DNA from: Centipeda felix
GTDB lineage: Bacteria > Bacillota > Negativicutes > Selenomonadales > Selenomonadaceae
NCBI RefSeq assembly: GCF_900186465.1
Contig: NZ_LT891957.1
Span: forward strand, 1 to 60,326
Direction of reading: 5' to 3'
DNA: 60,326 bases
Of this stretch, positions 19,827 to 24,327 are shown in pieces. Each line of letters opens with the position of its first letter. Position 1 is the stretch's first letter. Both the position numbers and the translations under genes were made by a program. The notes beneath the pieces are model-generated. The model was not told where the DNA came from and made no database searches. It was given only the letters and a program-made list of their open reading frames with translations.

Positions 19827-20767
19827 TACTTCTCCTCCGACAGGAGGCGGGAGACCAGATCATCATAGCCGTAGGCGGCCGCATTTCCCTTACTCGTCAC
19901 CCAGCGCACAGCCTCCGTCACATCCGACTCTGCCGGACTTCCTGCATAGCGATAGGACGGCAGTACGAGAACATCCCGCGCCGCAGGCGGGAATCCACTC
20001 CGCTCCACGACGAGATCCAGATACTCCGACTGCGGCGTATTGTTCAGATCGTCGACTGCTTTATTGTAGGCGCGGTACATCGCCCGAACGGATTTCTCCT
20101 TATCCTGAAGGGCGGATTTGGAAAAGACGATTACCCCCGGATTGATACCGAGATCACCCGAGCCGATCACATAGTGACTGCCCGATGCCGCCGCGACGCT
20201 CGCCATCGGCTCAGGCAGAACTGCCGCTCCGAGATTTCCGCTGCGGAGCATCTCAAGGCGTACCGGGATCTGCGGGATAACGACCTTTGCGACATCCTCT
20301 TCACGCATTCCGTTGGCAGCGAGAATCTCGTCCGTCACATACTCGATGATCGTGTTCTTGGAAACGGCGATCTCCTTGCCACGCAGATCAGCAGGGGAGG
20401 CAATCCCCGCACCATCGGATGCAACGAGATTGTAATTGCCGTCCGTATAGGAAACAGCACGGACATCAAATCCGCCGGAACGGGCGAAAATCACAGCCAG
20501 AAGGTCAGACACCGCTCCATCGAGATTTCCGCTTTGCAGTGCCGCATCACGATCCATTGCACTCTTGAACGGCTGCAACTCTACCTCAACGCCTTCCTCG
20601 GCAAAGTAGCCGCGTTCCGCTGCAATAATGAACGGAATAGAGTCCGTATCGGGCATCAGCCCGATGGTCAGCTTCGGGAGCGGCTCACTTTTCTCCTGCA
20701 CAGGAGCCCCACAGCCTCCCACAAGGAACAACGTCAGACAAAATAGGCAGGCAAGAATTTTCCTCAT
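19826..20767 (-). CDS. ABC-type substrate-binding lipoprotein (NMT1/SsuA-like)
   Basis: The 313-residue product has a lipoprotein signal peptide with lipobox LVGGC (Cys19). The mature part resembles NMT1/SsuA/ThiY binding proteins: LTIGLMPDTDSIPFIIAAER, GYFAEEGVEVELQPFKSAMD and DLRGKEIAVSKNTIIEYVTD. The ligand is unknown; this class binds sulfonates, pyrimidines or similar small molecules, not typically polyamines. No permease or ATPase lies nearby. It is translationally coupled on both sides (ATGA with the DUF3783 gene, TAATG with speA), so it is made with the polyamine enzymes. Confidence 0.82.
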   Translation of the reverse strand: MRKILACLFCLTLFLVGGCGAPVQEKSEPLPKLTIGLMPDTDSIPFIIAAERGYFAEEGVEVELQPFKSAMDRDAALQSGNLDGAVSDLLAVIFARSGGFDVRAVSYTDGNYNLVASDGAGIASPADLRGKEIAVSKNTIIEYVTDEILAANGMREEDVAKVVIPQIPVRLEMLRSGNLGAAVLPEPMASVAAASGSHYVIGSGDLGINPGVIVFSKSALQDKEKSVRAMYRAYNKAVDDLNNTPQSEYLDLVVERSGFPPAARDVLVLPSYRYAGSPAESDVTEAVRWVTSKGNAAAYGYDDLVSRLLSEEK

Positions 20768-21165
20768 TCTATATTCCCTTCTATAGGCACTCTGCCGCCG
20801 TGTTCCTTCGCCATGTGCTCACACAGATAGCGCAGTGTCCACAGCGTATTGTACGGCGTAATGGATGATTTGTAGGTGATATGTGGAACGCCCGCATCCT
20901 CCACGGCATGGAGAACCTGTGTCAGGCGCTTCCCCTTCACCCCATCCAGCAGCATCACACGATGCGGAAATGAGAACACATCCCCCTCCTGCGCCGTTTG
21001 CTTCAAAAAACCCTTGCGGCCAAGGAGATAGCCGACCTTCTCACGCCATGCATCCGGCGAAAGGATCTGAACGCCCACTCCCATCGGACGCAGTGCACCC
21101 GTAATCAACTCCGCCTGATCTGCGGGAAACTGATAGAGCAGAACACGCTCCTTGCTGTTCGCCAT
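20764..21165 (-). CDS. DUF3783-like protein
   Basis: This is a 133-residue soluble protein whose pattern resembles DUF3783 proteins: RVLLYQFPADQAELITGALR at the N-terminus, a central basic segment, and VMLLDGVKGKRLTQVLHAVE leading into VPHITYKSSITPYN near the C-terminus. Function is unknown. It lies 13 bases after the NYN gene and overlaps the lipoprotein gene by 4 bases. Assignment to DUF3783 is from memory of the pattern and needs a profile search to confirm. Confidence 0.6.
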   Translation of the reverse strand: MANSKERVLLYQFPADQAELITGALRPMGVGVQILSPDAWREKVGYLLGRKGFLKQTAQEGDVFSFPHRVMLLDGVKGKRLTQVLHAVEDAGVPHITYKSSITPYNTLWTLRYLCEHMAKEHGGRVPIEGNIE

Positions 21166-21178
21166 GGCAAGCCCTCCA

Positions 21179-22060
21179 TCATTTTGCTGAGAGACCGCGC
21201 ATGAGGAGATACGTCACAAGTTCGTCCAGAGAGACTTCCTCTTCAAGCACCTTGCGGTCGAGGGATGCACGCAGGCTCTTGGGCAGACGAACAGTGAGAA
21301 ATCCATTCATGACAGCGTTGCCCGCCTCATTCTTCGGCGTTGCTTCCTTTGCCGCAGGCGCCGCTTTTGCCTTGGATGTCGTCTTCTTTGTCTCCTTGGG
21401 GGCAGGTGCCTTTTGTGTTGGTGCCTCTGCCGTGTGTTCTGCCGCGTCTTTCTTCTTCGCCGCAGCTGTCGTGCGTTTTTTCTGCTCGCGTGCCTTCCCC
21501 GCTGTTTCTGCGTTTACTTTTGCATTATTCTTCGTCGTCTTTTCTTCTGCTGCTTTCTTCTTTGCCACGTTTTCCTCCGTTTTCTTCTCCTTCTTTTTCC
21601 GTGCTGCCTTCTTCTCTTTCTCCATCGGCGGCGGGTATACGAAGAACTCGTTGTATGCGTTGCGCAAGTCCTCACTTGCCTGCTTTGTTCCAATGCCGAT
21701 AATGTACGATGGATCCTCAGCGTTCAGCGACTCAGCAATACGTACGAAGTCAGAATCCGTTGTTATGATAAAGTACTTGCGCACCCCCTCTTGATAGAGG
21801 ATCTGCGCCGAGTCATAGAGGGCAGAATCCAGGGAATTTTTTCCCAGAAAGGTACGGCTGATCTGTCGAAAGGTAAAGTCCGGGGACTCCATGAGCCGAT
21901 CCCAACGCTTCTGATCGGGATGTGCCTCCCAATCCGAGACGACGATCATGCGGCATGGCTGGTAACGCTGTGCAATATCAATGGTATACTGAAGCATTTC
22001 AATCGGCGCATTCTCTATGTCGTAGAGGATCGCCACGGTATCATTGCTCGAATCGAGCAT
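21179..22060 (-). CDS. NYN (PIN-like) domain protein with Lys/Ala-rich linker and RHH-like tail
   Basis: This is a 293-residue three-part protein. Residues 1-140 form a NYN/PIN-like nuclease domain with acidic residues in ILYDIENAP (Asp14), SLDSAL (Asp78) and TTDSDF (Asp102/104), consistent with metal-dependent RNase activity. Residues about 147-247 are a low-complexity linker of Lys, Ala, Glu and Thr resembling histone H1-type tails. The last 46 residues (GFLTVRLPKSLRASLDRKVL then SLDELVTYLLMRG) have the strand-helix-helix pattern of ribbon-helix-helix or HicB-type domains. ATG 22060 has GAGGAGA upstream; GTG 22075 lies within that site. Function unknown. Confidence 0.75.
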   Translation of the reverse strand: MLDSSNDTVAILYDIENAPIEMLQYTIDIAQRYQPCRMIVVSDWEAHPDQKRWDRLMESPDFTFRQISRTFLGKNSLDSALYDSAQILYQEGVRKYFIITTDSDFVRIAESLNAEDPSYIIGIGTKQASEDLRNAYNEFFVYPPPMEKEKKAARKKKEKKTEENVAKKKAAEEKTTKNNAKVNAETAGKAREQKKRTTAAAKKKDAAEHTAEAPTQKAPAPKETKKTTSKAKAAPAAKEATPKNEAGNAVMNGFLTVRLPKSLRASLDRKVLEEEVSLDELVTYLLMRGLSAK

Positions 22061-22071
22061 CCTATCTCTCC

Positions 22072-23121
22072 TCACTCTTCCGCATCGAAAAACAGACGCC
22101 GTGCGCGTTGTGCCAGGAAGGTTGCCTCTCCCTCGAGCACATCTGCCTGCCGCAGATTCGTCTCGGCAGAGCGGATCGTCGCTGCGTTCTTATCCGTCAT
22201 CCACGCTGCATATCCCTCCGCGTAGGCGATATGGAGATCGCAGATCTTGATACGCAGCTGCTGGAGACTCTGCATCGTACGGGGAACGGAAACAGCACTC
22301 AGCTCTTCGCGCCGTTCCTGCCAGTCCGCGAGGACATCCTGCTCCATGATCTGGCGTGCCATGTCCCGTGTTGTCTGATTCCCCAGTGCGCCTGCGCCGA
22401 GCACACGATAGAGACGCATCTGTGCCGCACTGACGCTCTGATCATGCCGCCGAATAATGGCATCCGTCTCCTCAAGATACTGCTGAACCCGCAGGCGGCG
22501 CGCATTGCCCAAGAAGGCTGCATAATCATACAGATTCCGTATTGATACGACCTGCCAATCCCCATCATCCGAAGGAGCAAGGCAAACCTGAAACGTGAAA
22601 TCCGCATCTGCTTCGTCCTGATGCGCAACGACATCGACCACCGCCGTACGTGCTGCCTGATCCACCGTCAGATTTGTCGTCTCACGGAACGAGAGGTCAC
22701 GCAGGCCGATACGGGACAGGATATTCTCTGCGTCCGAACCGTCCTTTGCAGCATCCGCCGGCGGCCAATCGCCCTCCGTCAGATACGTATGAACCGCATC
22801 ATTCAGCATTTTGATAAACGCCGGCTTGAGCATCTTTGAAAAATCCGCCAGAGCCGCAGACGTATCATGCGCTCCACCGAACTCCGTATCCATCGTCCCG
22901 GCCATGAAGTCATCATAGCCCATGTCAAGGACATCATCCAGACGCACATAACGCAAAAAAAGCGTCTCATCCCGCGTCTCAAAGGCGCGCTCAATTGAGC
23001 GAAGCGCATACTCCGGCGTCTTCGTATAGACGCGAAAATACCAAAAGAGCCCTGCAAGCACCAGCAGCACACAGAGCAGTGCGGCACATGCGGCCTTTAT
23101 TTTCATGGCATGGCTCATCAT
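22072..23121 (-). CDS. Membrane-anchored protein of unknown function (DUF2939-like pattern)
   Basis: This is a 349-residue product with a single N-terminal membrane segment (AACAALLCVLLVLAGLFWYF) followed by YTKTPEYALRSIERAFETRD, a start typical of DUF2939-like proteins with a repeated helix-strand fold. The C-terminal half is helical and Gln/Arg-rich. It lacks a cleavage motif, so it is probably anchored with the bulk outside the cytoplasm. It lies between mnmA and the NYN gene with short gaps. I cannot assign a function. Confidence 0.65.
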   Translation of the reverse strand: MMSHAMKIKAACAALLCVLLVLAGLFWYFRVYTKTPEYALRSIERAFETRDETLFLRYVRLDDVLDMGYDDFMAGTMDTEFGGAHDTSAALADFSKMLKPAFIKMLNDAVHTYLTEGDWPPADAAKDGSDAENILSRIGLRDLSFRETTNLTVDQAARTAVVDVVAHQDEADADFTFQVCLAPSDDGDWQVVSIRNLYDYAAFLGNARRLRVQQYLEETDAIIRRHDQSVSAAQMRLYRVLGAGALGNQTTRDMARQIMEQDVLADWQERREELSAVSVPRTMQSLQQLRIKICDLHIAYAEGYAAWMTDKNAATIRSAETNLRQADVLEGEATFLAQRARRLFFDAEE

Positions 23122-23149: not shown

Positions 23150-24235
23150 TCATGGTATCACATGGTCGATGCTGCCGCCGCCCAGTACGGCATCGCCCTC
23201 ATAGAATACAATGGACTGCCCCGGTGTCACAGCACGCTGTGGCTCGGAAAAATGTACCGCCACAGTACCATCGCCCTGTGGCTCCATCCACGCATCTGCC
23301 TCGCGTTTTCCATAGCGTATTTTTGCCCGCACACGACGAGGTTTGTGTGGTGGCCGCGACAGTGTCCAACTCAGATCGGACGCCGTCAGTGCGTGTGCAA
23401 AGACCTCATCAGATGCACCGACAATCACACGGTTTTCAGACGCATCCAACGCCGTCACGTAGAGCGGATGCTCTGCCGCAATCCCGAGCCCCCTGCGCTG
23501 CCCAATGGTATAAAAGGCAATGCCTTCATGTGTGCCGAGGACATGTCCCGTACGATCCGTGATCGCCCCCGTCTGCATCGTCTGCGGTGCGTGCGTACGC
23601 AGGTAGGACTTATAGTCGTCACGGGGGACAAAGCAGATCTCTTGACTCTCCGCCTTGTGGGCAACGGGAAGCCCATAGTCCTCCGCCATACGCCGAATCT
23701 CGTCCTTGCGATAATCCCCGAGCGGAAAGAGAACATGATCCATCATCTCCTGTGTCAGATGATAGAGCACGTAGGACTGATCCTTCGCCGCATCAATGCC
23801 CTTTCGCAGATGGTAGGTTCCATCTTCCGTATGCGTGATCCGAGCATAATGCCCTGTGGCAATATACTGTGCACCAAGCGCCCGTGTTTTCTCCAGCAGC
23901 CCTTCAAACTTAATATAGCGGTTGCACGCAATACACGGATTCGGCGTGCGCCCACGCGCGTACTCCTGCGTAAAATAGTCAATCACCAGCCGCTGAAATG
24001 GATCGGTGAAGTCCATCACATAGTGTGGAATCCCCAAGATATCTGCGACACGGCGCGCATCGTCCACACTCGAGAGAGAGCAACAGCTGCGCCCATCGAG
24101 GTCGGCGTCGCGCGCCTCCTCCGAGAGACGCATCGTCACACCGACGACTTCATATCCCTGCTCCTGAAGAAGTGCCGCCGTGACCGAGCTGTCCACACCT
24201 CCACTCATCGCGACGACAACACGTTGTTTCTCCAT
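23150..24235 (-). CDS. mnmA: tRNA-specific 2-thiouridylase
   Basis: This 361-residue enzyme thiolates U34 of Lys, Glu and Gln tRNAs. It has the PP-loop VVVAMSGGVDSSVTAALLQE at the N-terminus, the catalytic cysteines in TPNPCIACNRYIKF and SQEICFVPRDDY, and the signature FYTIGQRRGLGI. The start is ATG 24235 (MEKQRVVVAMSGG) with GTGGAG upstream; the frame extends eight residues further. It is the first gene of a run that continues to speB, under the promoter 24274-24302. Confidence 0.95.
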   Translation of the reverse strand: MEKQRVVVAMSGGVDSSVTAALLQEQGYEVVGVTMRLSEEARDADLDGRSCCSLSSVDDARRVADILGIPHYVMDFTDPFQRLVIDYFTQEYARGRTPNPCIACNRYIKFEGLLEKTRALGAQYIATGHYARITHTEDGTYHLRKGIDAAKDQSYVLYHLTQEMMDHVLFPLGDYRKDEIRRMAEDYGLPVAHKAESQEICFVPRDDYKSYLRTHAPQTMQTGAITDRTGHVLGTHEGIAFYTIGQRRGLGIAAEHPLYVTALDASENRVIVGASDEVFAHALTASDLSWTLSRPPHKPRRVRAKIRYGKREADAWMEPQGDGTVAVHFSEPQRAVTPGQSIVFYEGDAVLGGGSIDHVIP

Positions 24236-24273
24236 CCTTTGCTCCACTATGAAATTCAATCAAATGTGAATTT

Positions 24274-24302
24274 AGTATAGCATTCGCATTCCGAAAATAC
24301 AA
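24274..24302 (-). promoter_or_regulatory. Promoter for mnmA and downstream genes
   Basis: On the minus strand TTGTAT (24297-24302) and TATACT (24274-24279) are separated by exactly 17 bases. It is divergent to tmcAL. Confidence 0.65.
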
Positions 24303-24327
24303 GATATTGTATTTGTGAACGAAGGAC

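Follow-up and report, generated by a model that had tools for sequence, protein, structure and literature searches.

The present analysis identified, in the 60,326 nucleotides of Centipeda felix DNA that were analyzed (the window), a gene encoding an NYN (PIN-like) nuclease domain joined by a basic linker to a C-terminal ribbon-helix-helix (RHH) domain related to that of HicB antitoxins. This NYN-RHH layout is common in the Selenomonadaceae. The homology and predicted fold of the NYN domain, its invariant aspartates, the basic linker predicted to be disordered, the homology of the tail to the RHH of HicB, the layout itself and the position of a neighboring DUF3783 gene are the observations from which we infer an RNase activity, dimerization, DNA binding, a target RNA and a role for this protein. 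We give about even chances to its being a DNA-tethered, metal-dependent NYN endoribonuclease that acts as a homodimer.

The NYN-RHH gene and its product

The gene lies on the minus strand at 21179..22060, an open frame of 293 amino acids with its ATG at 22060 and its stop codon at 21179-21181, as originally predicted. An in-frame GTG is present 15 bases upstream of this ATG; the ATG aligns with the starts of the orthologues, these being scripted choices of the start codon nearest to its position in the alignment. All 14 genomes searched in the genus carry a single match, with identities of 69-90% in the 13 others, and the closest named relative found is Selenomonas flueggei (90% identical). 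In an alignment of 33 rows that includes the window protein, the median identity of the 32 orthologues to it is 77% for the NYN domain, 64% for the C-terminus and 18% for the linker; the two ends are therefore conserved, whereas the linker is kept mainly in composition. Sequence searches of the PDB, run with the protein and with both the full and the tail alignments, returned no useful match, so the homology case rests on profiles and predicted folds, including an AlphaFold2 model of the whole protein built from 33 sequences (mean pLDDT 69.5, pTM 0.48).

The NYN domain (residues 8-142; 21635..22039, minus strand) matches Pfam NYN (PF01936) over residues 9-141 with an E-value of 5.2e-11 and 43.7 bits, above the cut-off of 24.2, and the protein is, as judged by its sequence, a member of the NYN family. 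Five aspartates (D14, D43, D78, D102 and D104) are invariant in the 33 aligned rows, as are E16, N17 and N75, and K74 is present in 32 of them. The NYN part of the AlphaFold2 model has block-mean pLDDT values of mostly 74-92. With the model of the protein as query, Foldseek found six chains under an E-value of 0.001 (7e-6 to 1.5e-4), all of them NYN domains (VPA0982, human and mouse MARF1), and VIA aligned the predicted model with mouse MARF1 (Z 14.4, rmsd 3.2, 136 aligned residues), human MARF1 (Z 13.7, rmsd 2.9, 133 aligned) and VPA0982 (Z 12.9, rmsd 3.6, 137 aligned), the next row after these NYN structures being a glycosyltransferase (Z 10.8). The NYN domains of MARF1 (PDB 6fdl, 5yaa) and VPA0982 (2qip) have the same fold, with a sequence identity of just 15-18%. 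The original prediction of an N-terminal PIN/NYN domain with the expected acidic residues was thus borne out by both profile and structure searches, and the loss of the aspartates in orthologues, which it had named as the outcome that would speak against it, did not occur in any of the 33 rows.

In MARF1, the acidic cluster of the NYN domain consists of Asp358, Asp426, Asp427 and Asp452, and this domain cuts single-stranded RNA (PMC6294520); in a bacterial CRISPR-linked NYN protein, D13, D118 and D143 have been named and the D13A form fails to cleave (PMC11346440). The D14-D78-D102 spacing resembles that of MARF1, as read by eye and not by a computed residue mapping. Unlike the NYN-RHH protein, MARF1 has RRM and LOTUS domains. 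A second NYN protein is encoded in the same genome (L111:1129-1917, minus strand), with an NYN match of 32.2 bits and no other Pfam match at an E-value of 0.001.

The linker (residues 147-250; 21311..21622, minus strand) is basic and predicted to be disordered: its roughly 104 residues comprise 27% Lys and 25% Ala and carry a net charge of +16, and the pLDDT of the AlphaFold2 model is below 50 at residues 174-247. Among the 33 rows, its length varies from 29 to 177 residues and its net charge is always positive (+5 to +32). A Lys/Ala/Thr-rich linker of about 100 residues had been predicted, and these measurements agree with its length and its Lys and Ala content; calling it histone-like is apt for its composition but no histone homology was shown.

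The relationship of the tail (residues 253-290; 21191..21304, minus strand) to the RHH domain of HicB is clear from the family profile, hhalign of the tail against the HicB alignment giving a probability of 98% and an E-value of 2.1e-13, with 44 columns aligned at 39% identity. Taken alone, the window tail is below the cut-off of Pfam HicB (PF05534; 17.2 bits vs 21) and, for the N-terminal domain of HicB (a partial RNase H fold), neither HicB_lk_antitox nor UPF0150 matched at an E-value of 1; the gene is therefore not classed as a HicB antitoxin. OST-HTH gave no match in the window protein at an E-value of 1 either, a threshold at which few matches weaker than about 0.1 pass the search filters. 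When single tails were searched against Pfam at an E-value of 0.05, RHH_5 was matched by 20 of the 33 and HicB by 13, besides two non-RHH families, HTH_WhiA (4/33) and MazE_antitoxin (3/33). In genome searches, the tail portion of the family profile also matches short proteins in many genomes. The ten fetched within the family all read as HicB by sequence, and the two of these that were scanned with Pfam matched both HicB and HicB_lk_antitox over the cut-offs.

The model of the C-terminus has two confident helices (residues 261-274 and 278-292; block-mean pLDDT 85-98). The strand is absent from the model of the isolated tail, which gives the two helices only; since RHH strands pair between chains, a lone-chain model cannot settle this point. 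Foldseek on the 47-residue tail model gave a best E-value of 0.26 (none at 0.001), and VIA gave a best Z of 6.7 (rmsd 1.4, 42 aligned) and a Z of 6.2 for HicB (rmsd 3.0, 44 aligned), a Z below 8 possibly reflecting just a common arrangement; these scores are weak, as is to be expected of such a small chain. Judging from their titles, most of the 50 fold matches listed are RHH proteins, among them Arc, AmrZ, CopG, MazE, TacA, PutA and NikR, as well as HicB from the HicAB complex of B. pseudomallei. The RHH-like C-terminus of the original prediction hence stands on its homology to HicB and on fold matches that are mostly RHH although weakly scored; the structure prediction that had been proposed as a check agreed as to the two helices and the nature of the matches but did not form the strand. 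Residue 258, which would face outward in the strand according to the usual RHH pattern, is R, K, N or H in 33/33 rows and residue 261 is K or R in 32/33. Residue 254 varies widely, with F, T, S, A, Q, I and V among its variants.

Prevalence and origin of the layout

Using family-profile matches with an E-value below 1e-90, we found the NYN-RHH gene in 66 of 189 Selenomonadaceae genomes, belonging to 13 of the 30 genera. The NYN and the tail were both matched in all 66 carriers, as a single match in 55 and as two pieces in 11, the latter corresponding to one open frame in ten cases and, in the draft genome G185, to two; both domains are therefore in one frame in 65 of the 66 genomes. The order-level search returned 189 genomes, the same number as the family search. 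Beyond the family, the two parts were not found together in any of the sampled genomes of the class (n = 252) and phylum (n = 398), both samples being requested at 90% completeness and including family members, and in the other genomes of the class and phylum that match both parts, the NYN and the tail are at separate places. The survey of Negativicutes suggested with the original prediction therefore reveals an architecture that is common in Selenomonadaceae and has no other representative among the 252 genomes of the class.

No tail match was obtained with the family profile in 20 other NYN frames. Among the seven of these frames that were scanned with Pfam, three match OST-HTH (L092, L095 and L106, the first under the cut-off), a partner known from PMC2848206, in line with the earlier statement that NYN proteins usually have other partners. 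Conversely, none of six fetched long frames with an RHH match, among those listed, has an NYN domain. In another family of the phylum, a 302-residue frame (L130) displays a HicB-like RHH end after a region that looks ATPase-like by eye.

Outside the family, the closest NYN relatives are L101:4777-5478 and L102:4816-5565 (both on the plus strand), whose C-termini are 37% identical to each other and match no Pfam family at an E-value of 0.1. These C-termini bear only a weak likeness to OST-HTH, and we rejected a winged-helix reading of them, for which the score was weak (31.6%). A tree was built from 38 NYN domains. Half of them came from the family alignment (19 of its 33 rows) and the other 19 from elsewhere; 14 of the latter are labeled OST-HTH, just three of these having been scanned with Pfam. 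All 19 RHH rows are on one side of a branch with a support of 89/91, beside L101, whose sister placement is not firm because several long branches meet. A single origin of the RHH form fits this tree, and the simplest reading would be that the tail was exchanged or gained a single time, with subsequent losses.

A putative RNase tethered to DNA

RHH domains are DNA-binding domains. In the mechanism that we propose, those of two chains would pair into one DNA-binding unit, like in HicB, Arc or CopG, and the basic disordered arms would let both NYN domains reach RNA close to the bound DNA, where the putative acidic cluster D14/D78/D102/D104 would cut it; candidate substrates are nascent transcripts or R-loops. 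The C-terminal DNA-binding domain of HicB binds palindromic operators, and models of fused HicAB proteins dimerize via their RHH (PMC10865869). Only tentatively do we propose the more precise version, in which the RNase would be anchored at specific chromosomal sites and cut nascent RNA or R-loops there; RNA decay would then be addressed by DNA sequence, the DNA-binding module of an antitoxin having taken the place of the RNA-binding tail of an NYN nuclease.

Several points speak against the tethered nuclease: the weak fold scores of the tail, the strand missing from its model, the matches of a few single tails to non-RHH families and the lack of an operator common to the genera. RHH domains can also act mainly in dimerization. 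The strongest rival explanation, which we consider possible but rather improbable, is a soluble RNase, dimeric and engaged in general RNA turnover, whose RHH would only dimerize and whose basic arm would bind RNA as OST-HTH does elsewhere. The presence of OST-HTH, a predicted RNA-binding domain, in some related NYN proteins is consistent with such an enzyme, and so are the conservation of the linker mainly in composition and the wide variation of residue 254, a strand position that would face DNA. However, a polar or basic residue 258 (33/33) and a basic residue 261 (32/33) are kept, as expected for a strand that reads DNA, which argues for the tethered nuclease.

Genetic context of the gene

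In the window, the genes follow the order mnmA, X, NYN-RHH, DUF3783 and a gene for a substrate-binding protein, and then genes of the Orn/Lys/Arg decarboxylase, spermidine synthase and arginase families. The first, mnmA (tRNA 2-thiouridylase family; 23150..24259, minus strand), matches Pfam tRNA_Me_trans with 259.7 bits. Gene X (22072..23121, minus strand), with a weak similarity to DUF2939 under the cut-off, ends 11 bases before the start codon of the NYN-RHH gene; by eye, its product has an N-terminal hydrophobic stretch. The DUF3783 gene (20764..21165, minus strand; Pfam DUF3783, 49 bits) lies 13 bases after the NYN-RHH stop codon. The location between mnmA and polyamine genes that was initially described is thus right as a general order, except that X intervenes on the mnmA side and DUF3783 and the substrate-binding protein gene on the polyamine side. 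As for the polyamine neighbors themselves, a decarboxylase gene is near NYN-RHH in 14/14 loci of the window genus but in 0/20 fetched loci of other genera, which covered 1.7 to about 5 kb downstream; since it is seen just in this genus, the polyamine context is local and has little functional weight.

DUF3783 is a steady neighbor. Among 50 loci (one per genome), the DUF3783 gene is directly downstream of NYN-RHH in 49, with a gap of -1 to 81 bases, and is elsewhere on the contig in the last one (L035); the two genes are probably in the same operon. The mnmA gene was found upstream in 36 of these 50 loci and is probably the first gene of this operon; 30 of the 50 loci had only about 1.5 kb of flank. 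DUF3783 was detected in 101 of the 189 family genomes, i.e., in all 66 that carry the NYN-RHH gene and in 35 others. It therefore does not need the NYN-RHH gene, and we rejected the idea that it is its strict partner. Nine DUF3783 loci devoid of the NYN-RHH gene were read: X directly precedes DUF3783 in four of them (L112, L113, L114 and L119), which mark a clean site of gain or loss of the NYN-RHH gene, and other genes precede it in the remaining five. In the genus of L112 (genome G169), the NYN-RHH gene is present in five of six genomes. The term DUF3783 was found in no paper in our literature search.

A palindrome, AAATACAA-4-TTGTATTT (24295..24314, no strand assigned), is present at the head of the operon, between mnmA and a divergent HIGH_NTase1 gene, and may be an operator or else a pair of -35 boxes placed back to back. 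Its core occurs at a single place in the genome and is found exactly in six of nine loci of the genus. Reading the operon head in 19 genomes of other genera did not reveal it (four loci with a long gap were skipped, and among the 26 loci, 7 repeat a genome already counted, leaving 19 genomes). No operator common to the genera was thus found in these 19 genomes, the palindrome being seen only in the genus. These data bear on the possibility of an autoregulator, whose RHH would repress the mnmA-X-NYN-DUF3783 operon via the palindrome and whose NYN would cut the RNA of its own operon. The single occurrence of the core at the operon head and its exact conservation in 6/9 genus loci would fit this possibility, and HicB regulates its own operon in such a manner (PMC10865869); yet the absence of the palindrome from the 19 other genomes and its overlap, by eye, with two divergent -35 boxes make it unlikely.

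Another explanation, that the NYN acts on DNA or is an inactive domain serving as a binding module, is more unlikely still. The superfamily includes 5'-3' nucleases (PMC2848206) and an RHH tail suggests DNA, but the NYN relatives described in PMC6294520 and PMC11346440 act on RNA, and the invariance of the five aspartates argues against an inactive domain. Finally, we rejected as very improbable a fused toxin-antitoxin or defence protein, combining a PIN-like toxin with the DNA-binding domain of an antitoxin, since, despite a tail homologous to an antitoxin domain and the existence of fused HicAB proteins with a C-terminal RHH (PMC10865869), there is a single such gene per genome at a steady chromosomal site, no PADLOC match at an E-value of 0.01 and no phage or plasmid record covering 80% of the NYN-RHH protein at an E-value of 0.001.

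Known systems and significance

Bacterial NYN/LK-nucleases (DUF88) with OST-HTH resemble the NYN-RHH protein in that a nuclease of the same family stands at the N-terminus and is joined by a linker to a small nucleic-acid domain at the C-terminus, OST-HTH being a predicted RNA-binding domain (PMC2848206). In contrast with these LabA-like proteins, the C-terminus is here an RHH devoid of any OST-HTH match. HicB antitoxins have the C-terminal RHH in common with it (39% identity in the profile comparison), but a nuclease replaces their N-terminal domain. The combination of an LK-nuclease with DUF2384 also joins an NYN-family nuclease to an HTH-type domain, not to an RHH (PMC2848206). The LK-nuclease partners given in this paper are OST-HTH, Zn-knuckle, S1/cold-shock and DUF2384, and the terms RHH and MetJ are absent from its main text. 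Our literature search, which did not include Anantharaman and Aravind 2006, found no description of an NYN-RHH fusion; we are thus dealing with a known kind of nuclease whose RHH partner was not found described.

In bacteria, NYN proteins were already known to occur with a partner that binds RNA, and this work adds a partner of the DNA-binding type, distributed over 13 genera. It also gives DUF3783 a steady neighbor. The layout raises a testable question: can an RNase be addressed to an RNA via the DNA template of that RNA?
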